Of a DNA stretch of 64,000 bases, positions 886 through 57,861 are shown in pieces. Origin of the DNA: Gammaproteobacteria bacterium (GTDB taxonomy: Bacteria; Pseudomonadota; Gammaproteobacteria; Steroidobacterales; Rariloculaceae); assembly GCA_022819855.1 (NCBI GenBank), contig JAJEGN010000008.1, forward strand, positions 124,001 to 188,000, given 5' to 3'. Position 1 is the stretch's first letter. The number at the start of each line of letters is the position of its first letter. The translations under genes were made by a program, and so were the position numbers. The notes under the pieces were generated by a model. That model had not been told where the DNA came from, did not search any database, and was given only the letters and a program-made list of their open reading frames with translations.

Positions 886-1881
886 ATGCCGATGAAGACC
901 CTCGTGACCGGTGCGAACGGCTTTGTCGGCGCGGCCGTCGTGCGCGCGCTGCTGGCAGACAAGCGGCCCGTGCGGGCGCTCGTACGTGCCTCGAGCGACT
1001 GCAGGAACCTCGAAGCCCTGCCCCTGGAGATGGTTCGCGGCGATCTCCACGATGCGCAATCGCTGCGCGCCGCGGTCGACGGATGCCGCTTCGTGATGCA
1101 CGTCGCGGCCGACTACAGGCTCTGGGCGCCCGACGCCGAACCGATGTACGAGACGAACGTGCGAGGTTCCGTCCGCGTGCTCGAAGCGGCTGCCGAAGCG
1201 CGCGTCGAGCGGATGGTCCATACGTCGAGCGTCGCCGTTCTCGGTGCACGCGCAGGTGCGGTTCCCGCGGACGAGACGACTCCGGTGACGCTTGCCGACA
1301 TGATCGGCCCGTACAAGCGCTCGAAGTACCTGGCCGAGCAGGCCGTTCGGGAACGCGCCCTGGAACTCGGATTCCCCCTGGTCATCGTGAACCCGTCAAC
1401 CCCGATCGGGCCGGGCGACGTCAAACCCACGCCGACAGGCCGTATCATTGTCGATGCGGCGAACGGCCGGATTCCGGCGTTCGTCGACACGGGTCTCAAC
1501 ATCGTGCACGTTGACGATGTCGCCCGCGGTCATCTGCTTGCGCTTGACCACGGCAGCGTCGGCGAACGCTACATCCTCGGCGGGACGGACATGAGCTTGC
1601 AGGAGATTCTCCAGACGATCGCCACACTGACCGGACGCAGGGCGCCCCGCATCCGTCTGCCGCGCCGTGCCGCCTATCCGCTTGCGGTCTGCGCCGAGGC
1701 GGTCGCGGCCGTCACGGGCGCCGAACCGCTCGTGAGCCGCGATGCCGTGCGCATGGCAGCGAAGCACATGTATTTCTCGAGCGCGAAAGCCGGGCGGGAG
1801 CTTGGTTACACGTGGCGCGAACCGGGCGCCGCGCTCGCCGACGCGCTCGAATGGTTCAGGCACAACGGCTACGTCGGCTGA
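886..1881 (+). CDS. hpnA: HpnA-like hopanoid-associated NAD-dependent sugar epimerase/reductase
   Basis: A 331-residue extended short-chain dehydrogenase. The Rossmann nucleotide loop TGANGFVG lies at residues 7-14, and the catalytic YxxxK appears as YKRSK near residue 143. The pattern IVNPSTPIGPGDVKPTPTG is typical of the hopanoid-associated (HpnA) branch that is also annotated as dihydroflavonol-4-reductase-like. The open frame extends 66 codons further upstream over hpnG, but homology begins at this ATG; a GTG at 862 overlapping the hpnG stop is the main alternative. Only one base separates its stop from the next gene, so translation is probably coupled. The exact reaction of HpnA is not established, although the family is strongly linked to hopanoid clusters. 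Confidence 0.85.
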   Translation: MPMKTLVTGANGFVGAAVVRALLADKRPVRALVRASSDCRNLEALPLEMVRGDLHDAQSLRAAVDGCRFVMHVAADYRLWAPDAEPMYETNVRGSVRVLEAAAEARVERMVHTSSVAVLGARAGAVPADETTPVTLADMIGPYKRSKYLAEQAVRERALELGFPLVIVNPSTPIGPGDVKPTPTGRIIVDAANGRIPAFVDTGLNIVHVDDVARGHLLALDHGSVGERYILGGTDMSLQEILQTIATLTGRRAPRIRLPRRAAYPLAVCAEAVAAVTGAEPLVSRDAVRMAAKHMYFSSAKAGRELGYTWREPGAALADALEWFRHNGYVG

Positions 1882-1882
1882 G

Positions 1883-2872
1883 ATGATCAAGGCTGCTGCT
1901 GCACGCGCCAGGTCGAACATTGCCCTGGTCAAGTACTGGGGCAAGGCCAACGGCACGCTGAACGTACCCGCCGTCGGCTCGATATCGATCACGCTCGACG
2001 CGCTCCGGTCGGATACGGAAGTCGTCTTCGACCCCGCCCTCGAAACGGACGAACTGGTGCTTGACGGCGAACCCCGTCCCGACGGGCTCGTCCGGGTCTC
2101 GGCCTGTCTCGACATCCTGCGGGAGCTTGCGGGCATCGGGACGCGCGCGGCAGTCGTGAGCCGCAACAACTTTCCGACCGGCGCCGGGCTCGCGTCTTCG
2201 GCGTCGGGTTTCGCGGCGCTCGTCGGCGCCGCGGCGCGGGCGCTCGGGCTTGAGCTGTCGCCCAGGGAACTCAGCATCATCGCACGGCGGGGCTCGGGCT
2301 CCGCGGCACGCTCGATATTCGGTGGATTCGTCGAGATGCACGCAGGAAATGCCCGTGACGGGCTCGACAGTTACGCCGAACCGCTCCTGCCCGGCAAGGA
2401 GTGGCCGCTTCATGTCGTCGTCGCAGTGACATCGACCGGCGAGAAGGCGGTCGCTTCGGGCAGCGGCATGCGGCATTCCGCTCGATCCTCGCCCTACTAC
2501 GCCGCATGGCTCCAGACGCATCCCGGCGACATGGCGCTCTGCCGTCAGGCCATCCGCACGCGCGACTTCGATGCGCTCGCCGAGATTGCCGAGGCAAGCT
2601 GCCTGAAGATGCACGCCGCCGCCATGGCCGCAGTCCCCGCGTTGATCTACTGGAACGGGACTACCGTCGAGTGCATCAACCGCATCCGGCAACTGCGAAT
2701 GTCCGGACTCCCGGTCCTGTTCACCGTCGACGCGGGCCCGCAGGTCAAGGCGGTCTGCACGCCGGATGCGCGCGCCGCGGTGCGGGACGCTCTGGCCGCC
2801 ATGCCCGGCGTCGTCGAGATCATCGAAACCGGGCTCGGACCCGGCCTGGAGACGCACGAGTGCGCTTCGTAG
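1883..2872 (+). CDS. mvaD: Diphosphomevalonate decarboxylase
   Basis: A 329-residue GHMP-fold enzyme that converts diphosphomevalonate to isopentenyl diphosphate with ATP, the last step of the classical mevalonate pathway. The N-terminus carries the family signature SNIALVKYWGK; the phosphate-binding loop is GAGLASSASGFAAL near residues 99-112; and the catalytic aspartate is in FTVDAGPQ near residue 284. Length matches the family (about 320-330). It starts one base after hpnA ends and overlaps the next gene by 13 bases, which places it firmly in the operon. Seeing the classical pathway in a hopanoid-producing proteobacterium is itself uncommon, because most use the MEP route. Confidence 0.93.
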   Translation: MIKAAAARARSNIALVKYWGKANGTLNVPAVGSISITLDALRSDTEVVFDPALETDELVLDGEPRPDGLVRVSACLDILRELAGIGTRAAVVSRNNFPTGAGLASSASGFAALVGAAARALGLELSPRELSIIARRGSGSAARSIFGGFVEMHAGNARDGLDSYAEPLLPGKEWPLHVVVAVTSTGEKAVASGSGMRHSARSSPYYAAWLQTHPGDMALCRQAIRTRDFDALAEIAEASCLKMHAAAMAAVPALIYWNGTTVECINRIRQLRMSGLPVLFTVDAGPQVKAVCTPDARAAVRDALAAMPGVVEIIETGLGPGLETHECAS

Positions 2873-3867
2873 CGCGTGCGCCCGGCAAGCTCGTCGTCCT
2901 CGGCGAATACGCGGTTCTCGACGGCGCGCCGGCACTCGTGATCGCCGTCGACCGCTACTGCCGCGCAAGCATCGGCCCGAGTGAAGACTCCGCCTGTCAT
3001 CTCGAAACCCGGGCGCCTCTGTCCCGGCGGGTCCGACGGACGCCCGGAGAGCCGAGCGGCGTTGCGCTCGTCGATCTCGTTTGCAGCGAGACGCACGGCC
3101 TGCAACGGCTCAAGCCATGGCGTGCCGTGCTCGACTCGACAGAACTCTTCGGTGCTCGCGGCAAGCTCGGGCTCGGCTCGAGTGCAGCGGCGCTCAGCGC
3201 CTGGGCCGGAGTCTGGGCGGCCTGGGCCGGCGCCGGCGGACTGCGGACGCCGAAGCCCGCCGTCGAGCGATTGATCCGGCTGCACCGGGCGTTGCAGGAT
3301 GGCGCCGGCAGCGGACTGGATGTCGCCGCGTCGCTGACGGGCGGCGCCATCGAATATCGCCTCGAAGACACCGCGGTTCCTCGTGTCGCTACAGTCCGAC
3401 TGCCGAAACGTGTACCATTGAAAGGGGTTTTTACTGGCAGCGCCGCGTCGACGCCCGGCCTCGTGGCCCATTACAGGCAGTGGGCCGCGGCTCGGCCGGA
3501 AGCCGCGCAACGGCAACGGCAGATCATGGCGTCCGTCGCCGAGGCCGGTTGCGCTGCTGCACGGAACGACGATGCAGACGCTTTTCTCGCGGCAGTCACC
3601 GACTATGGGAGGCATCTCGACAGTTTGGGCAAGGCCATGGGTGCGGATATCGTGACCGCGGAACACCGCGCGATCGGCGCCGCCGCCGACGATCACGGTA
3701 TCAGCTACAAGGTCAGCGGCGCCGGCGGCGGCGATCTCGGAGTCGCATTCGCGCGCGACCCCGACGCGCTCGAAACGTTCGCGTCAGCCGTCCGCACGAA
3801 GGGGTACCGGATCATCGATCTCGATCTCGACCGGCATGGCCTGACCGTCGAGGACACCACGGAATGA
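2860..3867 (+). CDS. mvaK2: Phosphomevalonate kinase (GHMP family)
   Basis: A 335-residue GHMP kinase predicted to phosphorylate mevalonate-5-phosphate. It opens with ARAPGKLVVLGEYAVLDG, the substrate-end motif of the Erg8/MvaK2 type, and has the phosphate loop GLGSSAAALSAW near residues 108-119 and a C-terminal GAGGGDLG glycine motif. A GTG at 2860, inside the end of mvaD, gives the family-length protein; the open frame upstream of this is a shadow of mvaD. Its TGA overlaps the ATG of the next gene (ATGA). The order decarboxylase, phosphomevalonate kinase, then reductase/kinase fusion makes a classical rather than archaeal-type pathway the simplest reading. Confidence 0.88.
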   Translation: MRFVARAPGKLVVLGEYAVLDGAPALVIAVDRYCRASIGPSEDSACHLETRAPLSRRVRRTPGEPSGVALVDLVCSETHGLQRLKPWRAVLDSTELFGARGKLGLGSSAAALSAWAGVWAAWAGAGGLRTPKPAVERLIRLHRALQDGAGSGLDVAASLTGGAIEYRLEDTAVPRVATVRLPKRVPLKGVFTGSAASTPGLVAHYRQWAAARPEAAQRQRQIMASVAEAGCAAARNDDADAFLAAVTDYGRHLDSLGKAMGADIVTAEHRAIGAAADDHGISYKVSGAGGGDLGVAFARDPDALETFASAVRTKGYRIIDLDLDRHGLTVEDTTE

Positions 3868-6137
3868 GTTCGCAAGGCCTGAGAATTCCGGAGTTCTACA
3901 AGCTCAGCGTCAGGGAGCGGGTCCGGGCCGTCCACGAACGCGGCATGCTCACGGCGGACGACTTTCGCTCGCTTTCGACGGGCCAGCACACCCTGGACCT
4001 GTCGTCTGCAGACAGGATGGTGGAGAACGTCGTCGGCATCATGGGATTGCCGCTCGCTCTCGGCATGAACCTGCTCGTCAATGACAGGCAGTACGTCGTA
4101 CCCATGGTTGTCGAGGAACCTTCGGTCGTGGCCGGACTCGGCTCCGCATGCAAGCTCATCAGGAACGCGGGCGGATTCACGGCCACGTCGAGCGATCCGA
4201 TCCTGATCGGCCAGATCCAGCTCATCGATCTGCCCGACGTCGATGCCGCGAGGCAGGCGCTCGACGACCGCAGGAGCGAAATCCTCAATCTCGCCAACAG
4301 CTTTCATCCCAACATGGTCGCGCGGGGCGGCGGCGCGCGCGACCTCGAACTCTTCGTGCATCGGCTGCCTTCCAGCGGCGAACCCATGCTCGTGATCCAC
4401 CTGCTCGTGGACACGCGCGATGCCATGGGCGCCAACCTCGTCAACGGCATGTGCGAGGGCGTCTCCCCGCTGATCGAATCGATCACCGGCGGACAGGCCT
4501 TTCTGCGGATCCTGTCCAACCTCACCGATCGCGCCCTCGTGCGCGCAAGCTGCACGATACCCGTGAGCGCACTCGCCGGCCGCGGTTACACGGGCAAGGA
4601 AGCGCGCGACGGCATCGTGGTCGCCGCCGACTTCGCGGCCGTCGATCCCTACCGGGCCGCGACTCACAACAAGGGCATCATGAACGGCATCGATCCGCTT
4701 GCGATCGCGACCGGCAACGACTGGCGCGCGATCGAGGCGGGTGCGCATGCCTATGCCTGCCGGGCCGGACAATACACGTCGCTCTCGGACTGGCGGACGG
4801 ATGCAGAAGGCAACCTGCACGGCCGCATCGAGATTCCCATCAAGGTCGGTATCGTCGGAGCGCCGCTCGAATCGAATCCCACTGTCGCGCTCAACCTCCG
4901 GCTGCTCGGGGTCGAATCGGCCACGGAACTCGCCGAGGTCATGGCGGCCGTGGGACTCGCCCAGAACTTCGCCGCGATCCGCGCGCTGGCGACCGAGGGC
5001 ATACAGAAGGGTCACATGACGCTGCATGCGCGCAGCGTCGTCACGGCAGCGGGTGCGGCCGTGAGGGAGTTCGACGAAGTACTCGACCGGCTCGTGCAAA
5101 GCGGTGTGATCAAGATCTGGAAGGCGCGCGAGATCATCGACAAACTGCGCGGCGAACGGAAGCGAACCAACGGTTCGCGCCGCAAGCGACGCGCGGACGC
5201 GAAACTCGGCACGGGATTCGGCAAGGTCGTGCTGCTCGGCGAACATGCGGTCGTTTACGGGCGCCACGCGATCGGCGCGCCCGTGCCCATGACGATCAAG
5301 GCCCTGATCGAGGATTGCGACGCGGGCATCCACCTCATGATTCCGCGTTGGGGCGTCGAATACGAACTCGCGGCGGACCCCAGGGAGCGGCGCTCGTTCG
5401 AACGGCCTGCCGGCGTCGTGCTCGACAAACTCGGTCTCGGCGGGCGCAGCATGCGTATCGAAGTCTTCCCCGACGTGCCGCGCGGCATGGGGCTCGGCGG
5501 ATCGGCGGCGATGGCCGTCGCCATCGTGCGCGCCCTCGACAGGCACTTCGAACTGGGCCTCTCCGATGCCGAGATCAATTCACTCGCATTCGAATCGGAG
5601 AAGATCGCCCACGGCAGCCCGAGCGGACTCGACAACACGATCGCGAGCTACGGCAAGCCGGTCGTTTACCGCCCCGGGGACCCGCCGCTCGTCGAACCGT
5701 TGAACGTCACCGAACCCATTGCGGCCGTCATCGGCATGAGCGGCGCCGAGGGACTGACCGCGACGACCGTGCGGCGCGTGCGCGAAGCCTGGCGCAAGAA
5801 CCCTAAACTCTACGAACGCATCTTCGACGAGATCGACGCGCTGACCTTGCGCGCCGTCCAGGCCATTCAGGACCGCGATCTCGAGTTGCTCGGGGAGCTG
5901 ATGAACATCAATCACGGCCTGCTCAACGCGCTGCAGGTGTCAACGCCCGAACTCGAGCAACTCGTCGAAACGGCGCGCAGGCACGGCGCGCTCGGCGCGA
6001 AGCTCACCGGCGGCGGCGGCGGCGGCTCGGTGATCGCGATCTGCGACGGCGATACCGAGCCGGTTGCGAAGGCGATCAGGGCGGCGGGATTTCAGGCGGT
6101 GGCGGTCAACCTGGGGGCGGATCTCGATGGCCCGTGA
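3864..6137 (+). CDS. Bifunctional class II HMG-CoA reductase - mevalonate kinase fusion
   Basis: A single 757-residue frame carries two consecutive mevalonate-pathway enzymes. Residues 1 to about 425 are a class II HMG-CoA reductase: catalytic Glu in VVEEP (84/85), nucleotide motif DAMGAN (186-191), Lys in THNKG (270), Asp in TGNDW (286) and His in LHARS (388). After a basic linker (about 430-447) residues 450-757 are a mevalonate kinase with LLGEHAVVYG (457-466), GMGLGGSAAMAVAI, SPSGLDNTIASYG and a C-terminal Gly-rich loop. There is no stop and no plausible internal start at the junction, so a covalent fusion is encoded. It would turn HMG-CoA into mevalonate-5-phosphate without releasing mevalonate. 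The ATG overlaps the upstream stop as ATGA; the end overlaps idi by 11 bases. Each domain is assigned with high confidence; activity of the fusion is inferred. Confidence 0.92.
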   Translation: MSSQGLRIPEFYKLSVRERVRAVHERGMLTADDFRSLSTGQHTLDLSSADRMVENVVGIMGLPLALGMNLLVNDRQYVVPMVVEEPSVVAGLGSACKLIRNAGGFTATSSDPILIGQIQLIDLPDVDAARQALDDRRSEILNLANSFHPNMVARGGGARDLELFVHRLPSSGEPMLVIHLLVDTRDAMGANLVNGMCEGVSPLIESITGGQAFLRILSNLTDRALVRASCTIPVSALAGRGYTGKEARDGIVVAADFAAVDPYRAATHNKGIMNGIDPLAIATGNDWRAIEAGAHAYACRAGQYTSLSDWRTDAEGNLHGRIEIPIKVGIVGAPLESNPTVALNLRLLGVESATELAEVMAAVGLAQNFAAIRALATEGIQKGHMTLHARSVVTAAGAAVREFDEVLDRLVQSGVIKIWKAREIIDKLRGERKRTNGSRRKRRADAKLGTGFGKVVLLGEHAVVYGRHAIGAPVPMTIKALIEDCDAGIHLMIPRWGVEYELAADPRERRSFERPAGVVLDKLGLGGRSMRIEVFPDVPRGMGLGGSAAMAVAIVRALDRHFELGLSDAEINSLAFESEKIAHGSPSGLDNTIASYGKPVVYRPGDPPLVEPLNVTEPIAAVIGMSGAEGLTATTVRRVREAWRKNPKLYERIFDEIDALTLRAVQAIQDRDLELLGELMNINHGLLNALQVSTPELEQLVETARRHGALGAKLTGGGGGGSVIAICDGDTEPVAKAIRAAGFQAVAVNLGADLDGP

Positions 6138-6699
6138 GCAAATCGTCTCGAGCGACAGCGAGGAGCTGATTCTCGTCGACGAACTCGACCGGGAGATCGG
6201 GGTCAAGGCCAAGAGCGAGTGTCACGCCGGCAACGGCATACTCCACCGGGCCTTCTCGATCTTCGTCTTCAACGGCGCCGACGAGCTGCTGCTGCAACAG
6301 CGCAGCGGTCAGAAACCATTGTGGCCGAACTACTGGTCGAACACCTGCTGCTCGCATCCGCGCAGCGGCGAATCCATGGACGAAGCCCTTACCCGGCGGC
6401 TTTCGGAGGAACTCGGGTTCGAGTGTCCGCTGCACTACCTCTACAAGTTCAAGTATCACGCCCAATACGGCGCGCTTGGTGCCGAGCACGAGTATTGCTG
6501 GGTATACTACGGGCGCCACGACGGCGGCATCGATGTCAACGTCAACGAGGTGGCCGACTGGCGGTTCGTGGACGTGGCGTCGCTGAACGCGGAACTCGAA
6601 CTGCACACGGACCGGTTCACACCCTGGTTCAGGATGGAATGGGCGCACATCAGCAACAATTTTCTGGACGATATCCTTGCGGGCATGGGCCCCAGGTAA
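6127..6699 (+). CDS. idi: Isopentenyl-diphosphate delta-isomerase, type I
   Basis: A 190-residue Nudix-fold isomerase interconverting IPP and DMAPP, required when IPP comes from mevalonate. Visible landmarks are the metal/catalytic cysteine in SNTCCSHP near residue 78, the Nudix-like helix around LSEELGFECPLHYLYKFKYHA, and the second catalytic glutamate in EYCWVYYG near residue 124. The ATG at 6127 lies within the end of the reductase/kinase fusion gene, giving an 11-base overlap; the open frame extends further upstream but without homology. Placement between the kinase fusion and hpnH ties isoprenoid supply directly to hopanoid side-chain assembly. Confidence 0.93.
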   Translation: MAREQIVSSDSEELILVDELDREIGVKAKSECHAGNGILHRAFSIFVFNGADELLLQQRSGQKPLWPNYWSNTCCSHPRSGESMDEALTRRLSEELGFECPLHYLYKFKYHAQYGALGAEHEYCWVYYGRHDGGIDVNVNEVADWRFVDVASLNAELELHTDRFTPWFRMEWAHISNNFLDDILAGMGPR

Positions 6700-6728: not shown

Positions 6729-7850
6729 ATGGGAATCCCCTTGGTACAAAAGTACCGGATCGGCCGCTACATCCTCGAGCAGAAGCTCAAGCGCAACACG
6801 CGCTATCCGCTCGTGCTCATGCTGGAGCCGCTGTTCCAGTGCAATCTGGCCTGTGCGGGCTGCGGCAAGATCGACTACCCCGACGACATCCTGCGCAAGC
6901 GCGTGAGCGTCGAGGACGCGCTCGCGGCGGTCGACGAGTGCGGCGCGCCGGTCGTCTCGATCCCCGGAGGCGAACCGCTGATCCACAAGGAGATGCCGCA
7001 GATCGTGAAGGGCATCATCGAGCGGAAGAAGTTTGTGTATCTGTGCACGAACGCGTTGCTGCTCGAACAGAAGATCGTTGACTACGAGCCCTCCCCCTAC
7101 CTGACGTTCTCGATCCACCTCGACGGCAACCGCGAGCGCCACGACGAATCGGTCTGCCGCGAGGGCGTGTTCGACAAGGCGATTGCCGCGATCAGGACGG
7201 CCCGCGAACGCGGCTTCCGGGTCACGGCCAACTGCACGCTCTACGCCGGCGAAGATCCCGACGACGTCGCCGACTTCTTCGACTATGCGATGACGCTCGG
7301 CATCGAGGGCATCATGGTCTCGCCGGGCTACAGCTACGAACACGCGCCTCGCCAGGACGTCTTCATGGGGCGGCGCAGGTCCAAGGAACTCTTCAGGTCG
7401 ATCTTCCGGCGCGGGCGCGCGCGCGGCAGCAGGTGGCGCTTCAACCAGTCGAGCCTGTTCATGGATTTCCTGGCCGGCAACCAGACCTTCCAGTGCACGC
7501 CCTGGTCGAATCCGACCTACAACGTCTTCGGCTGGCAGAAACCGTGCTACCTGCTCGTCGACGAAGGCTACGCCGACAGTTTCCAGGAACTCATGAGCAC
7601 GACCGACTGGGACCGCTACGGCACGGGCATCAACCCGAAGTGCGACAACTGCATGGCGCACTGCGGCTATGAAGGCACGGCGGTCGAACGCATGATCGCA
7701 AGACCGTTACAGGCACTCAGGGTGTTCCTGTTCGGACCCGAACTCGACGGTCAAATGGCGCCGGAACTGCCCGTCCTGCATGGCGGCCAGCCGGGCGGCG
7801 TAGCGATCCCCGTCGATCACGTCGGCAGGCTGGACCGCGACGGGCATTAG
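6729..7850 (+). CDS. hpnH: HpnH-like radical SAM adenosylhopene transferase
   Basis: A 373-residue radical SAM protein. The cluster-binding CxxxCxxC is Cys38, Cys42 and Cys45 (FQCNLACAGCGK), followed by the SAM-contact motif SIPGGEP near residue 78. A C-terminal set of cysteines (PKCDNCMAHCGYEG near residue 305) is characteristic of the HpnH group. HpnH joins a 5'-deoxyadenosyl radical to diploptene, giving adenosylhopane, the substrate of HpnG at the other end of this operon. The 29-base gap before it contains an AGGAACAGG ribosome-binding region. Family identity is strong; the reaction comes from studies of other bacteria. Confidence 0.9.
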   Translation: MGIPLVQKYRIGRYILEQKLKRNTRYPLVLMLEPLFQCNLACAGCGKIDYPDDILRKRVSVEDALAAVDECGAPVVSIPGGEPLIHKEMPQIVKGIIERKKFVYLCTNALLLEQKIVDYEPSPYLTFSIHLDGNRERHDESVCREGVFDKAIAAIRTARERGFRVTANCTLYAGEDPDDVADFFDYAMTLGIEGIMVSPGYSYEHAPRQDVFMGRRRSKELFRSIFRRGRARGSRWRFNQSSLFMDFLAGNQTFQCTPWSNPTYNVFGWQKPCYLLVDEGYADSFQELMSTTDWDRYGTGINPKCDNCMAHCGYEGTAVERMIARPLQALRVFLFGPELDGQMAPELPVLHGGQPGGVAIPVDHVGRLDRDGH

Positions 7851-7883: not shown

Positions 7884-9344
7884 CTACCGGACGAAGCGGT
7901 AGTACTCGATCCCTTCGTCGCTGAAATTCGGGTTCGCGTTGTTGCCGACGGAGTCGACGACAAAGCCGCTGGGCGGCGTGTCAAGGCCGTCGGCTTCGCC
8001 GGTATCGTGTAGCGACTCGTACTGCGCGCGGTTCAGATTCTGGTAGTCGCCAAGGGCAGCGCCGAAACGGATCCTCGCGGCCGCCTCGGCCCAGTCGTCG
8101 CAAACCGTCATGGGCAGGGCTTCGGCCGCGTCTCCGCTGCCGTAGCCCACCGCAAGCACGTTGCGTCCGGCGAGTTCCAGTTTGCGATCGCGGGCGTCTT
8201 CCATGCCGGCCGCAAGCCACGCCGGCAGAGCCGCACAGTAGATGTTGCCGACATCCATCATCGCCTCGGTGCCGAGCGACATTTTTGACCTGACGAGGCC
8301 GAAGTCCGGACTTGCGCGGAACTCGCGCAGCACGCGCATGCTGAGGGGATACGCATCCGCATCGATATTGTCGTCCTTGACGAGCTGCAGGACATCGGGC
8401 CTGGAATTCATCTCGGCGACGAGTTCATCGACGCCGAAATCCATGCCGCGGCAGAGCCGCTCGAGCGTCGCGCGACCCGCGTCGCCATCGCGGCCAAGCG
8501 CAAACAGCCAGCTCATCGCGAACGACGATTCGGGCATTCGGTGGTAGGGGCGGTGCATGAAAACGGCCGCAAGTTCCCGGTAGTACTTCGCCGGTTCCGA
8601 ACCCATGCGCTGCGTCATGTCGTCGAGCGCGTGCAGCGTTTCGTCGAGGTAGCACGTCGTGGAGTACTTGCCGTTGAAAACCGGCAGGTCCTGGAAATGG
8701 CAATTCAGCGTGCCGCGAATGATGTTGCGCAGCACCGGCTTTCGAAAGTCGATGGCGCGGTAGGACGATGCGCTGCCGATGTGGGCGAGATCGACGGACA
8801 GCAGTTTCGGGTCGCGCTCGACGAGCATCGCCACCGCGCCGGCACCCTGGGTCGGCTCGCCGGAGCTGCCCCGCGCATATTCGGCGATATCGGCGCTGAC
8901 GACGATCGCGCAACGGTCCAGCGGCTCGAGCGCAAGGTACCTCAGCGCATACTTGAGCGCGTAGACTCCGCCGAGGCAGGCATGCTTGACCTCCGGCACT
9001 TCGCAGTTGCGGTTGATCGTCGTGCTTCCCTGCCCCTTGAGCGCTTCGTCGACCATGCCCTTGACGATGACGGCGCCAGCGGAATTGTCGGTGCTCGATT
9101 CCGTGCCCAGGCCCAGAAAACCGACGCGGCCAGGATCGATATCGTAGCGCTCGATGAGCCGCATCACGGCGGTAGCTGCGATCGTGTAGACGCTTTGCGC
9201 CGGACCGCGCATGCGGAAGCTGCGGCCGATGACGGCCTGGGTCTTGTCCCAGGGGGAGCCCGTCCAGTCGCACCATGAACGCAGGTCGACCCGGTATGGC
9301 GGTACGTAGACTGCGAATCCACTGATACCGACGGGATGCCTCAT
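7884..9344 (-). CDS. mvaS: Hydroxymethylglutaryl-CoA synthase
   Basis: A 486-residue thiolase-fold enzyme that condenses acetoacetyl-CoA with acetyl-CoA. The catalytic Glu is in LGTESSTD (residue 82), the acyl-accepting Cys in KHACLGGVYAL (residue 123) and the catalytic His in FMHRPYHRMP near residue 275. At 486 residues it is longer than typical bacterial MvaS (about 390), with an extended C-terminal part resembling longer homologues. It is convergent with the mevalonate/hopanoid operon and has its own upstream region, so first and later steps may be regulated separately. The ATG start is followed at once by the conserved GISGFAVYVPPYRVD strand. No acetoacetyl-CoA thiolase is nearby. Confidence 0.92.
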   Translation of the reverse strand: MRHPVGISGFAVYVPPYRVDLRSWCDWTGSPWDKTQAVIGRSFRMRGPAQSVYTIAATAVMRLIERYDIDPGRVGFLGLGTESSTDNSAGAVIVKGMVDEALKGQGSTTINRNCEVPEVKHACLGGVYALKYALRYLALEPLDRCAIVVSADIAEYARGSSGEPTQGAGAVAMLVERDPKLLSVDLAHIGSASSYRAIDFRKPVLRNIIRGTLNCHFQDLPVFNGKYSTTCYLDETLHALDDMTQRMGSEPAKYYRELAAVFMHRPYHRMPESSFAMSWLFALGRDGDAGRATLERLCRGMDFGVDELVAEMNSRPDVLQLVKDDNIDADAYPLSMRVLREFRASPDFGLVRSKMSLGTEAMMDVGNIYCAALPAWLAAGMEDARDRKLELAGRNVLAVGYGSGDAAEALPMTVCDDWAEAAARIRFGAALGDYQNLNRAQYESLHDTGEADGLDTPPSGFVVDSVGNNANPNFSDEGIEYYRFVR

Positions 9345-53503: not shown

Positions 53504-54529
53504 TCACTCGGGCTTTCGGGCCAGAAAACAGTAAAGCGGGGTGAATATTCCCGACTTGCCGCCCGCGACATAGGCGTCGGCCGTTCGATCCATCAGGCGG
53601 ACAACGTTGACCGAGCCTCTCGGAAAATACCTGAACGCCTCCGCGAGCCTGAGCGCGCCGATCATCGCCTTCCGGCCCAGCGGCGTCCTGCGAAACGCGC
53701 TGCGCAAGGTACCGCGCTGCCCCTCCATGGGCTGGTACCACGGCGTGCTCGGGCCGTCCTGGAGGTCCATGTCCGCCGCTTCGACGATCCGGAAGCCGAC
53801 GGCTTCGAGAGCGCGGTTCACCTCCGTGAACGTCGCGATGTCGCGTAGCGCGATTCCATGCATGAGGTCTTTCTTCAGGGCCCGGTGATGACCGTTGTCG
53901 GGATCGAACTTCCCGGTCATGCACATCTCCTGGCCCCAGAACAGCGCGCCCGGTTTAAGTACGCGCCAGATTTCCGCGAACGCCCCCTGTTTGTCGGGAG
54001 CGTGGCAGGTCGACTCGATCGCATACCCCGCATCGAAGCTGTCGGAGTCAATGGCGCTCATGTCCATGAAGCTGCACTTCATGTACTCGGCCATTCGGTC
54101 GAGGCCCGCCTCGACGTTCAGTCGCTTCGCCTTTTCCAGTTGCCCCGCGTTGTTGTTGATGCAGAACACCCTGGCGCCGGATTCGCGGGCGACCCGGCGC
54201 ATCGGACCGCCCACTCCACACCCGACATCGACGACGGTCATTCCCTCTCGCAGTTGCAGACGTTCGATCATCACGCGCTGATGACGGACGATCGAGTCCT
54301 CCAGCGTCTCTCCGGGTCGCAACGGCGCGAAGTGCAGCGACTCGTTCCAGCCGAACTGCATGAATTCGCCGCACAGGTCGTAGTAGTCGTTGACCGTCTC
54401 GGTATGGTCGTAGTCAACATGCGCGTCACGCCGTTGACTGGTGTCGAGCCAGCGGGCGTAGCGCGCCAGGCGGCCTTCGACGTTCGAACCGCGGTAGGCG
54501 TTCCAAACGTTTCTGGAGAGGCGGATCAA
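53504..54529 (-). CDS. Sterol C-24 methyltransferase homologue (Erg6/SMT family)
   Basis: A 341-residue SAM methyltransferase that aligns by eye with eukaryotic sterol methyltransferases over its whole length. Region I is YYDLCGEFMQFGWNESLHF (residues 49-67), the SAM motif DVGCGVGGP (101-109), region III YAIESTCHAP (169-178), then WRVLKPGALF, and the ending VAGGKSGIFTPLYCFLARKPE-like tail matches the yeast Erg6 ending. Such enzymes alkylate C-24 of the sterol side chain using SAM. It is 19 bases downstream of an RND permease gene on the same strand, so the two are likely cotranscribed. A tocopherol-type or other small-molecule methyltransferase is the alternative but lacks these three regions together. 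The substrate is inferred. Confidence 0.82.
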   Translation of the reverse strand: MIRLSRNVWNAYRGSNVEGRLARYARWLDTSQRRDAHVDYDHTETVNDYYDLCGEFMQFGWNESLHFAPLRPGETLEDSIVRHQRVMIERLQLREGMTVVDVGCGVGGPMRRVARESGARVFCINNNAGQLEKAKRLNVEAGLDRMAEYMKCSFMDMSAIDSDSFDAGYAIESTCHAPDKQGAFAEIWRVLKPGALFWGQEMCMTGKFDPDNGHHRALKKDLMHGIALRDIATFTEVNRALEAVGFRIVEAADMDLQDGPSTPWYQPMEGQRGTLRSAFRRTPLGRKAMIGALRLAEAFRYFPRGSVNVVRLMDRTADAYVAGGKSGIFTPLYCFLARKPE

Positions 54530-54548: not shown

Positions 54549-57500
54549 TTACGCGGCGGCGCCGTCGGGAGCGCGCCGACCGATCAGGCCCAGGCGTATC
54601 GAATACAGGGCGGGCACGAGCAACATCAGGATGGCCGTGGTGATCGCGATACCGAAACCGAGCGACGCGGCAAAGGGACGCAGGTACTGCGCCTGGATGG
54701 CTTGTTCCAGAATGAGGGGCGTGAACCCGAGGAAGGTGGTCACCGACGTCAGCATGATCGGCCTGAAGCGCCCCTTGGCGCCCTCGATGATCGCGGTCCG
54801 CGCGGGCGCGCCCTCGTGCAGTCGCTGATCGATGAAGTCGATCATGACGAGCGAATCGTTCACGACGACTCCGCTGAGCCCGAGGATGCCGAGGATGGCC
54901 GTGGTCGTGAAGTCGATTCCCAGTACCAGGTGACCCAGGATCACGCCGACGATTCCGAACGGAACGACGGCCATGATGATGAACGGCTTGGTGTAGGAAC
55001 GAAGGGGAATCGCCAGCAGGGCGTACATGATGAGCAGGGCGATTGCGAAACCGCGATAGAGCGAGTCCAGGGAATCGAGCTGCTGTTGCTGTTCGCCTCC
55101 CATGGTGTACGTCAGGTCGGGGTTCGCGGCGACGAGTTCCGGCAGTATCGCGCTGGTCAACAGGCCGTTGGCCTCGCTGCCGGTGATGACGGACAGGTCC
55201 ACATCGGCGGTAACCGTGACGACTCGCTGACCGTCCCTGCGACTGATGACCGGAGCGGCAACGCCCGTGTTCAGCGCGGCGACCTGGCCAAGCGGGACTT
55301 CTCCTCCCCCGGGCGCGCGAATCCGGTATCCCTCGACATCCGTGATCGAGCCGCGCTCATCGGCGGGCAGGCGCGCGAACACCCGCACCTCGTCCCGGCC
55401 TCTCTGCACGCGATCGGCCTCGGCGCCAAAGAACGCGGCGCGCGCCTGCAGCGCCACCGTTTCCTGAGTCAGCCCGAGCGTCCGCGCCTCGGGCCGCAGG
55501 GCGAGTTGGATCTCCTTGACTCCCGGCGTGTGATCGGAGCGCACGTCGAACACCCCCTCGATGCCCCGGAGGCTGTCCACCAGCGCGCTTGCGATCCCGG
55601 GCAGGCGTTCCGAATCGGGGTTCGAGAGAACGACTTCGACGGGGTTACCCAGATCGACGACCTCGCCGCTGAAGGTAATGCCGCGCACATGCGGCAGGAT
55701 GCCGACCTCTTCGCGCCATGCCTGCACGACTTCGCCGGTTGAGAGCTCCCGCTGCTGCGCGTCCAGCAGCTTGAATTCGATGGCGGCGATGTTGGCCTGA
55801 GCATTCTGCGTGGGCTCCGGGGTGAGTCCCCCGCCCTCGCGGCGCGGTCCCTCGCCAACCGTCACCGTGACTCCTGACAGCAAGGGCGGCGCGTCGTCGG
55901 GCCGGCCGCTCGACAGCCGCTCGATGACCCGGTGACCGGCGGCCTCCAGTTCCCGCGCAACCTCCAAAGTCCTTGGCGCGGACGTGCCTGCCGGCATTTC
56001 GAGACGGGCCGTCACGAAGTCGCCCTCCACGGCGTCGGCGAAGGTCGACGTGACGATACCGGCCGGCAACAGGGAGACGCTGACGATCAGAAGTGCGACG
56101 CAGCCCGCGATCGTGATCGCGGGTTGAGCGGTCGCGAACCTGAGCGCCCTATCCAGGGGACCGTTCACGAAGCGGCCTAGTTGGCGGTCGACCTGGCCCT
56201 TGATCCGCGCAAGCGCCCTGTCCAGGCTGTTGGACGGCGCCCATTCGGGACCATGCATGTGGGACAGGTGATTTGGCAGGATCAGCAGCGATTCGAACAG
56301 GGAGATCAGCAGCATGGCGATGACCATGATCGGCAGGGCCCGCCAGATCTCGCCGATGCCCCCGGGCACGAAGAACACGGGGGTGAACGCCACGATCGAG
56401 GTCAGGACGGCGAAGGTCAACGGAATCTTGATGCGTCGAGCGCCGCGAATCGCGGCGAGCACCCCCGGAGTGCCCCGCATGCGCTCGAGATGGATCTGTT
56501 CCGCCACGACGATGGCGTCGTCGACGATGATGCCGATGGCGAGCACGAACACGAACAGGGACACCGTGTGGAGCGCGACGTCGAGCGCCAGCATCACCGC
56601 CAGAACGCCCACGAACGCCGTGGTCAGGCCGACGACGACCCACAGCGCGAGCCGGATGTCCAGAAACAGGGCCAGCGAGACGAAAACGAGCAGCAGGCCC
56701 ATGCCGCCGTTCTTCAGCAGCAGTTGAACGCGCTCGGCGTACGTCTGCGATTCGTCGTTCAGGATGTCCAGTTGCACGCCTTCGGGGAGCGACGGGACGA
56801 TGACATTGGCGACATGTTCGTGGACGGCCGTCGCGACCTCCATCACATGCTCGCCCTCGACGCGGGAAACTTCCACGAATGCAGCCGGCCGGTCCTGGTG
56901 GCGGACGATCAGGTCCGCATCCTCGAAACCGTCTCGAACCTCGGCGATGTCGCCCAGGCGCACGATCGTGCCGTCGCCGCGGCTGAGCACGATGATGTCC
57001 TCGAAATCCCGTTGAACGTAACGCTGACTGAGGGAGCGAATGCGCACCTGCTCCTGCGCCGTGCTTATGCGGCCGGCGGGAAGGTCGCTGGAGCTGCGGC
57101 GCACCGCGGCGGCGATGTCGTCGAGCGTAAGGCCCAGCGCCTGCAGCCGGTTCATCGGGACTTCAATGGAGATCTCGTAATCCCGCACACCGCTGGTCTC
57201 GACCAGCGATACGGTTGGCAGGGACGCGAGCTCATCCTCGATCTGGTAGGCGAGTTCCTTCAGCGAACGTTCCGGAATGTCGCCGTAAACCACCAGTCGG
57301 ATGATGCTTTGCCGACTGGTCATTTCCGTGATTTCGGGGCGCTGTGCGCCGGCCGGAAACGACTGGATGCGGGAGACCGCCGATTCGATCTCGTCCAGCG
57401 CCTGGGGAATGTCGGTACCCGACTGCACTTCGATCCTGACCGAGGCGATCCCCGGCGCGGCCAGGGATTTGACCGCAATGACATCGTCAAGGGAACTGAC

Positions 57501-57743
57501 CTGCTCCTCGACCTTGACGACGATCGACTCCTCAACTTCCTCGGGCGTGGCGCCGGGATAGGCGATCAAGACTTCGATGTGGTTGAAGCGGAGCGTTGGC
57601 CAGGATTCGCGCTCCAGCCCAGACAGCGACACGAGACCAGCCGCCAGGATCGCGAACATTGCCAGGTTGGCGGCGACGCCGTTGCTCGCCATGTAGGCAA
57701 TGGGTCCGCGGGGCTCCCCGGAATAGTCGTCGTTGCGACTCAT
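54549..57743 (-). CDS. RND efflux transporter permease (AcrB/HAE1-like)
   Basis: A 1064-residue inner-membrane pump with twelve membrane helices and two large periplasmic loops. The helix 4 proton-relay motif is IGIIVDDAIVVAEQIHL and the second half mirrors it with LSGVVVNDSLVMIDFIDQRL. TSIVAFTPVFFVPG marks helix 6. ATG 57743 is preceded by AGGGACC and starts just before the conserved N-terminal helix. There is no membrane-fusion partner or outer-membrane channel gene nearby. Coupling to the methyltransferase makes a lipid or sterol substrate conceivable, but the family also pumps drugs and detergents. Confidence 0.9.
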   Translation of the reverse strand: MSRNDDYSGEPRGPIAYMASNGVAANLAMFAILAAGLVSLSGLERESWPTLRFNHIEVLIAYPGATPEEVEESIVVKVEEQVSSLDDVIAVKSLAAPGIASVRIEVQSGTDIPQALDEIESAVSRIQSFPAGAQRPEITEMTSRQSIIRLVVYGDIPERSLKELAYQIEDELASLPTVSLVETSGVRDYEISIEVPMNRLQALGLTLDDIAAAVRRSSSDLPAGRISTAQEQVRIRSLSQRYVQRDFEDIIVLSRGDGTIVRLGDIAEVRDGFEDADLIVRHQDRPAAFVEVSRVEGEHVMEVATAVHEHVANVIVPSLPEGVQLDILNDESQTYAERVQLLLKNGGMGLLLVFVSLALFLDIRLALWVVVGLTTAFVGVLAVMLALDVALHTVSLFVFVLAIGIIVDDAIVVAEQIHLERMRGTPGVLAAIRGARRIKIPLTFAVLTSIVAFTPVFFVPGGIGEIWRALPIMVIAMLLISLFESLLILPNHLSHMHGPEWAPSNSLDRALARIKGQVDRQLGRFVNGPLDRALRFATAQPAITIAGCVALLIVSVSLLPAGIVTSTFADAVEGDFVTARLEMPAGTSAPRTLEVARELEAAGHRVIERLSSGRPDDAPPLLSGVTVTVGEGPRREGGGLTPEPTQNAQANIAAIEFKLLDAQQRELSTGEVVQAWREEVGILPHVRGITFSGEVVDLGNPVEVVLSNPDSERLPGIASALVDSLRGIEGVFDVRSDHTPGVKEIQLALRPEARTLGLTQETVALQARAAFFGAEADRVQRGRDEVRVFARLPADERGSITDVEGYRIRAPGGGEVPLGQVAALNTGVAAPVISRRDGQRVVTVTADVDLSVITGSEANGLLTSAILPELVAANPDLTYTMGGEQQQQLDSLDSLYRGFAIALLIMYALLAIPLRSYTKPFIIMAVVPFGIVGVILGHLVLGIDFTTTAILGILGLSGVVVNDSLVMIDFIDQRLHEGAPARTAIIEGAKGRFRPIMLTSVTTFLGFTPLILEQAIQAQYLRPFAASLGFGIAITTAILMLLVPALYSIRLGLIGRRAPDGAAA

Positions 57744-57861
57744 GGTCCCTCGGCAGTCTCCACGGGCGGGCATTCTAGCACCCGGTACGGCGGCCCGCCG
57801 GACACCGGAATCCGATCCCCGGCGCGGCCTGGAACGCCTGTTGCGTCAAGAAGCCGCGGGT

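Follow-up and report, generated by a model that had tools for sequence, protein, structure and literature searches.

Sterol methyltransferases (SMTs) have been known in bacteria since 2023 (Brown et al. 2023, PMC10070321), and the view that C-24 alkylation of sterols is normally eukaryotic, held in an earlier note on the DNA described here, is thus out of date. The enzymes of that study belong to sponge symbionts and environmental MAGs, and the genomes considered there, sponge symbionts among them as, very probably, the present one is, contain OSC, CYP51, ERG24 and sdmA/sdmB. Symbionts of Ircinia carry steroid gene clusters (CSGs) with an ERG24-CYP51-cyclase core and an SMT, and such clusters, subject to transfer, are distributed over many phyla of sponge-associated taxa (Kelly et al. 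2022, PMC9531527). An RND-superfamily transporter is linked to sterol genes in the BstABC system of Methylococcus capsulatus (PMC10942540), and the nematode 4-SMT is an SMT-like protein, Region I of which lacks the aromatic signature of 24-SMTs (PMC6997595). Aromatic residues of this region are described as cation-stabilising in C-24 methylation (PMC5711494, PMC6997595).

The gene studied here, designated SMT-B, lies in a window of 64,000 nucleotides, i.e. the whole stretch of DNA analysed (C10:124001-188000), belonging to a genome of 3.73 Mb that is 97.7% complete. Superfamily and domains are common to SMT-B and the SMTs of Brown et al. (PMC10070321), but regions I and IV and the gene neighbourhood differ, although the 24 metagenomic SMTs assayed there, four of which were inactive, may include members of the SMT-B clade. 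The Ircinia CSGs find their counterpart in a cluster on contig C5 of the same genome, whereas SMT-B is on a separate contig and has other partners: a fusion of GPP34 and P450 domains, a KshA-type Rieske oxygenase and an RND transporter. The latter recalls the Methylococcus system, but BstA is MMPL-type, while the transporter in the window is AcrB-type (its match is to ACR_tran, PF00873, only), and neither BstB nor BstC was seen with it. No description of the altered sterol site of the SMT-B clade or of its module was found in the open-access literature searched. The clade and the module appear to be the novelty; bacterial SMTs, sterol clusters of sponge symbionts and fused SQE-OSC are already published (PMC10070321, PMC9531527). 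Our main reading, to which we give a probability of roughly 0.55, takes SMT-B for a C-methyltransferase of the SMT superfamily and for the hallmark of a module for tailoring and exporting sterols that has spread across many phyla of sponge-symbiont bacteria. The components of this module in the present genome include:

53504-54529, minus strand: SMT-B, a 341-aa SAM-dependent enzyme of the sterol methyltransferase superfamily, starting with TTG (PF08241 and PF08498)
54549-57773, minus strand: AcrB-type RND transporter of 1074 aa (PF00873, 503 bits)
C10:188634-189710: KshA-type Rieske oxygenase, a module partner (matches L049 over 341 residues, E 3e-129)

The gene at 53504-54529 is real. Its product has a SAM-binding methyltransferase domain (Methyltransf_11, 3.1e-17, 63.4 bits, above the Pfam cut-off) followed by Sterol_MT_C (8.4e-17, 61.5 bits at a cut-off of 21.7), the order found in the superfamily. 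Since PF08498 was registered in none of 14 control genomes and in only one of 398 genomes in a sample of the phylum, this one being the present genome, its match in SMT-B is not due to chance. The motif YAIESTCHAP and the C-terminal pattern reported in the earlier note were located at residues 169-178 and 323-341 (GGKSGIFTPLYCFLARKPE), respectively. Purifying selection is indicated by a dN/dS of about 0.16 for comparison with L035, and the values were 0.08-0.16 in seven of eight pairs and 0.40 in one very close pair. The AlphaFold2 model (pLDDT 86.7, pTM 0.88) has a class I methyltransferase fold. MitM, AtmM, TleD and GPP/FPP C-methyltransferases are the nearest solved structures both in sequence and in fold, but all PDB matches are non-SMT methyltransferases and no true SMT structure was among them, so this comparison is non-discriminating. 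Neither SMT-B nor the second SMT of the genome (SMT-A) reaches the cut-off of any NCBIfam model, and Rfam gave no match within the 64-kb window. Eukaryotic contamination as a source of the gene is unsupported: the contig is 248 kb long, the neighbours are bacterial and bacterial orthologues reach 82% identity.

In the tree all SMTs, i.e. SMT-B, SMT-A types and eukaryotic enzymes, were split from 12 other methyltransferases with 99/95. This supports the proposed SMT homology and, together with PF08498, rules out a tocopherol or small-molecule methyltransferase, the identity against which a tree had been suggested as a check. SMT-B forms one clade (99/99), whose sister consists of SMT-A types, that is cluster-type bacterial enzymes, and eukaryotic SMTs (96/93); the reference rows of this tree (three eukaryotic sequences, yeast and Arabidopsis among them, and sll0418) were entered by hand rather than retrieved from a database, and branching near the root rests on long outgroup branches. 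Identity between SMT-B and SMT-A is about 40%. On a larger SMT tree phylum labels switch 16 times with a minimum possible number of 7, several switches being forced by starred branches. Transfer between phyla is likely judging by this pattern, which misbinned contigs and paralogues can mimic.

At least 547 relatives of SMT-B were found among named GTDB genomes, and the best 80 of them (61-83% identity) are labelled Gammaproteobacteria, Alphaproteobacteria, Chloroflexota, Nitrospirota, Nitrospinota, Gemmatimonadota, Acidobacteriota, Actinomycetota and Dadabacteria. For residue analysis 82 SMT-B sequences were used; they represent at least 8 phyla, and all of them seem to derive from sponge MAGs. 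This origin was read from MAG names, which point to metagenomes of Rhopaloeides, Coscinoderma, Ircinia, Aplysina and other sponges, the mapping being deduced via PMC8163846, PMC9531527 and general knowledge. The source is a marine bacterium and very probably a sponge symbiont. Among its nearest kin SMTs are patchy (8 of 58 genomes). Close relatives also contain further divergent SMT types (L025, L028, L032), with three SMTs in G398, three matches in G416 and two in G417.

A gap of 19 bp separates the end of the RND gene from SMT-B, which lies downstream of it in the same orientation, and the two are probably co-transcribed. A gene of the same family adjoins SMT-B in Gammaproteobacteria, Gemmatimonadota and Acidobacteriota. 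Recurrent neighbours were collected by clustering of ORFs across the 80 loci, and the most frequent was a protein some 675 aa long that joins a GPP34 domain at its N-terminus to a P450 domain at its C-terminus (60 genes, median distance 185 bp), followed by a KshA_C Rieske oxygenase (47 genes), AcrB-type RND transporters accompanied by membrane-fusion and outer-membrane partners (23 genes, median 20 bp), an FAD protein of the family that stands beside SMT-A in the present genome (22 genes) and MMPL transporters (20 genes, of which 13 are in Chloroflexota, where they replace the AcrB-type, and 7 in others). Where SMT-B was flanked by no less than 8 kb on each side (44 loci), the P450 was present in 37, the Rieske gene in 29 and an RND or MMPL transporter in 31. 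Since gene order and orientation vary, this linkage is not merely an inherited chromosome region. In the present genome the Rieske gene, an outer-membrane protein, a fusion protein and GPP34-P450 occupy C10:188634-194842, just beyond the window end, and the full module with the outer-membrane and fusion partners is contained within about 20 kb. L049, a member of the Rieske family, combines a Rieske domain with KshA_C (PF19298, 87 bits); the cluster and iron ligands characteristic of the KshA type are conserved (C68, H70, C90, H93, H180, H185 and D312), as are the heme ligands of the P450 protein. The fusion of a GPP34 (Golgi phosphoprotein 3) domain to cytochrome P450 is exemplified by L115:8710-10842 (minus strand) and its relatives, and direct search of the open-access literature gave nothing relevant on GPP34 with P450. 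Stand-alone GPP34-like genes of about 220-250 aa occur in many of the genomes with SMT-B and GPP34-P450.

The same partnership is seen at the level of whole genomes. Among 58 relatives, SMT and GPP34-P450 were found together in 8, the P450 only in 1, the SMT only in 0 and neither in 49 (raw counts with kinship ignored), so the fused P450 occurs in 1 of 50 SMT-free relatives. In one of the eight, G399, only SMT-A was detected and the P450 frame holds stops. In-frame stops in the GPP34-P450 copies of L119 (G399) and L126 (G416) may mean that the module is decaying in some of the relatives. Across many phyla 44 of 45 SMT-B genomes have GPP34-P450, kinship again being ignored, and it was missing only from a 1.3-Mb Dadabacteria bin. 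An OSC-type cyclase (PF13243, 178-196 bits, like the present genome's own) was registered in 15 of these 45 genomes. No oxidosqualene cyclase was found in the other 30, several of which are incomplete bins, but three are single-chromosome assemblies: G456 (4.3 Mb) has no cyclase of any kind, G492 (Dadabacteria) no cyclase, and G482 (Nitrospirales) no oxidosqualene cyclase, with one hopene-type match only. In Dadabacteria (L094 and L102) a sterol reductase, the Rieske gene and SMT-B are packed within about 6.5 kb in a genome without cyclase. Because 30 of 45 carriers, including the three single-chromosome assemblies, are cyclase-free, the module probably acts on sterols made by others, and the sponge host or co-symbionts are the probable source for such carriers.

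We infer a sterol as the substrate and the following order of steps. SMT-B would methylate the sterol with SAM, most likely on a side-chain carbon, C-24 or one beyond it, in a remodelled site; GPP34-P450 and the KshA/DAF-36-type Rieske oxygenase would then oxidise or desaturate it, and the product would leave the inner membrane through a tripartite RND pump or, in other phyla, an MMPL-type transporter. A point against this is that drug export is a common task of AcrB-type RND pumps. KshA and DAF-36/Neverland are the Rieske oxygenases with which the module's Rieske protein is compared. Taken together, the module would probably serve to methylate and oxidise sterols and to export them, and bacteria unable to make sterols would use it on those of the host. 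In cyclase-free carriers the substrate would have to come from the host or neighbours, but in the present genome it may also be supplied by a sterol cluster of its own, both sources being possible there. The genes of this cluster, found on contig C5 (locus L012, seven genes), are:

L012 cluster: SMT-A, FAD/amine-oxidase-like protein, squalene epoxidase-oxidosqualene cyclase, P450, ERG24/ERG4-type reductase, SdmA-like and SdmB-like proteins of C-4 demethylation
L012:4916-8311, minus strand: squalene epoxidase-oxidosqualene cyclase in one 1131-aa frame

The search for squalene epoxidase and oxidosqualene cyclase suggested in the earlier note thus found both. The catalytic site of the cyclase is VSDCTAE, unlike that of a separate 676-aa squalene-hopene cyclase, and CYP51 entries are the best solved relatives of the P450 (3e-108); NCBIfam scores of the cyclase, SdmA and SdmB are high but under the curated cut-offs. 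With squalene epoxidase, oxidosqualene cyclase and demethylation genes present, the genome is, judged by its genes alone, that of a de novo producer, predicted to perform both synthesis and alkylation, and SMT-A, a conventional SMT inside the cluster, is its candidate for C-24. Long cyclase frames (1138-1413 aa) like the 1131-aa fusion recur in other sponge-symbiont genomes. A direct search of the open-access literature gave nothing on the SQE-OSC fusion, but PMC10070321 already mentions fused SMO/OSC homologues, and we dropped it as a novelty. Because the present genome has sterol-making genes and many other SMT-B carriers show no cyclase, the question raised earlier, whether the bacterium makes 24-alkyl sterols or modifies those of a host, is probably to be answered by both.

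Coexistence of SMT-A, SMT-B and the de novo cluster in one genome may point to another function, namely that SMT-B performs a second (SMT2-like) or third step of C-24/C-28 alkylation in the own pathway, after the first methyl introduced by SMT-A. Bacterial SMTs have been shown to alkylate sequentially (PMC10070321), and at four Nitrospirota loci (L072, L085, L086 and L100) SMT-A and SMT-B are adjacent near sterol genes. However, SMT-B is outside the sterol cluster in the present genome, travels with other oxygenases and pumps and is found in many bacteria where cyclase is missing, which makes this function unlikely, though it deserves to be kept in mind.

The earlier note listed all three conserved regions as present; Region III (YAIESTCHAP versus YAIEATCHAP of 24-SMTs) and the SAM motif are indeed intact, but Region I and region IV are altered. 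Region I of SMT-B reads FMQFGWNESLHF in place of FYEYGWGxSFHF, so that the aromatic signature YEYGWG is absent and MQFGWN stands there, and region IV is WGQEMCMT in place of AxYEWxMT (YEW changed to QEM). In yeast numbering Y81 is M in 82 of 82 SMT-B sequences, and Y223 to Q and W225 to M are replaced in 100% of them. Columns fixed in SMT-B against the rest include (yeast residue, SMT-B residue in brackets) Y81 (M57), F89 (L65), A221 (W198), Y223 (Q200), W225 (M202), L290 (M268) and M360 (L332), several of which fall within sterol-binding regions I and IV. Since the aromatic residues of 24-SMTs are partly replaced, the substrate or the methylated carbon may differ. With Tyr81 and the region IV Tyr/Trp missing and the position in a sister clade, the proposed C-24 specificity is not supported as stated: SMT-B belongs to the superfamily, but cannot be classed as a 24-SMT by its sequence, and C-24 is not assured.

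These replacements, and the lack of the same Region I signature in the nematode 4-SMT (PMC6997595), could be read as methylation of the sterol nucleus, for instance at C-4 of a 3-keto sterol, with the Rieske protein and P450 acting on ring-modified steroids. The Rieske partner does match KshA_C, a family active on steroid nuclei, but it scores only 80-83 bits against solved KshA, over the N-terminal half, and it may be a 9-hydroxylase or a 7-desaturase. We know of no C-4 activity for SMT-B. Its retention of W61, F59, H66 and region III of 24-SMTs, together with a far closer relation to these enzymes (about 40% to SMT-A) than that of 4-SMT (21% to Erg6p; PMC6997595), makes nuclear methylation rather improbable. 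A non-sterol lipid or natural product as the substrate, with the module being a secondary-metabolite biosynthesis-and-export cluster, would agree with the natural-product and prenyl-diphosphate methyltransferases among the nearest structures, with the P450, Rieske and RND combination and with cyclase-free carriers, but has little likelihood given that the PDB matches do not discriminate, that PF08498 and the tree group SMT-B with SMTs and that none of the recurrent neighbours at the 80 loci was seen to encode a scaffold-making enzyme.

A bolder version of the sterol-tailoring module can be offered only tentatively: SMT-B might represent a new SMT subfamily with altered regiochemistry (beyond C-24, at C-26 or in the nucleus), forming the core of a horizontally shared module with which symbionts of many phyla would methylate, oxidise and export host sterols, in which case bacteria rather than the sponge would make some of the unusual fossil-biomarker sterols. 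24-Alkyl steranes are read as early animal or algal markers, and bacterial SMTs already complicate such reading. The module offers a possible route to unusual sponge sterols, and the clade, a deep sister of known SMTs that is widespread in apparent sponge symbionts, accompanied by a pump and a pair of oxygenases and found also in cyclase-free cells, provides concrete genes for testing symbiont remodelling of host sterols.

Mevalonate genes were also reported in the window, and they are there:

1742-2872, plus strand: mevalonate diphosphate decarboxylase-like protein (MVD), precursor supply (PF22700, PF18376)
3081-6137, plus strand: HMG-CoA reductase and GHMP (mevalonate-type) kinase in one frame (PF00368, 352 bits; PF00288, PF08544)
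6064-6699, plus strand: NUDIX protein, possibly isopentenyl diphosphate isomerase, a role suggested by its neighbours (PF00293)
7884-9344, minus strand: HMG-CoA synthase-like protein (PF01154; TIGR01835 below cut-off)

The reductase/kinase frame is an apparent fusion, whose start is probably internal, near MSSQGLRIPEF. Among these genes, at 6729-7850 of the window (plus strand), stands HpnH, an adenosyl-hopene transferase scoring over the NCBIfam cut-off, and with the squalene-hopene cyclase on another contig (L015:7067-9097) the genome combines hopanoid and sterol genes. A second ERG4/ERG24-type reductase (L014:4948-7756, minus strand) adjoins a gene of the sulfotransferase family, a possible hint of sulphated sterols.
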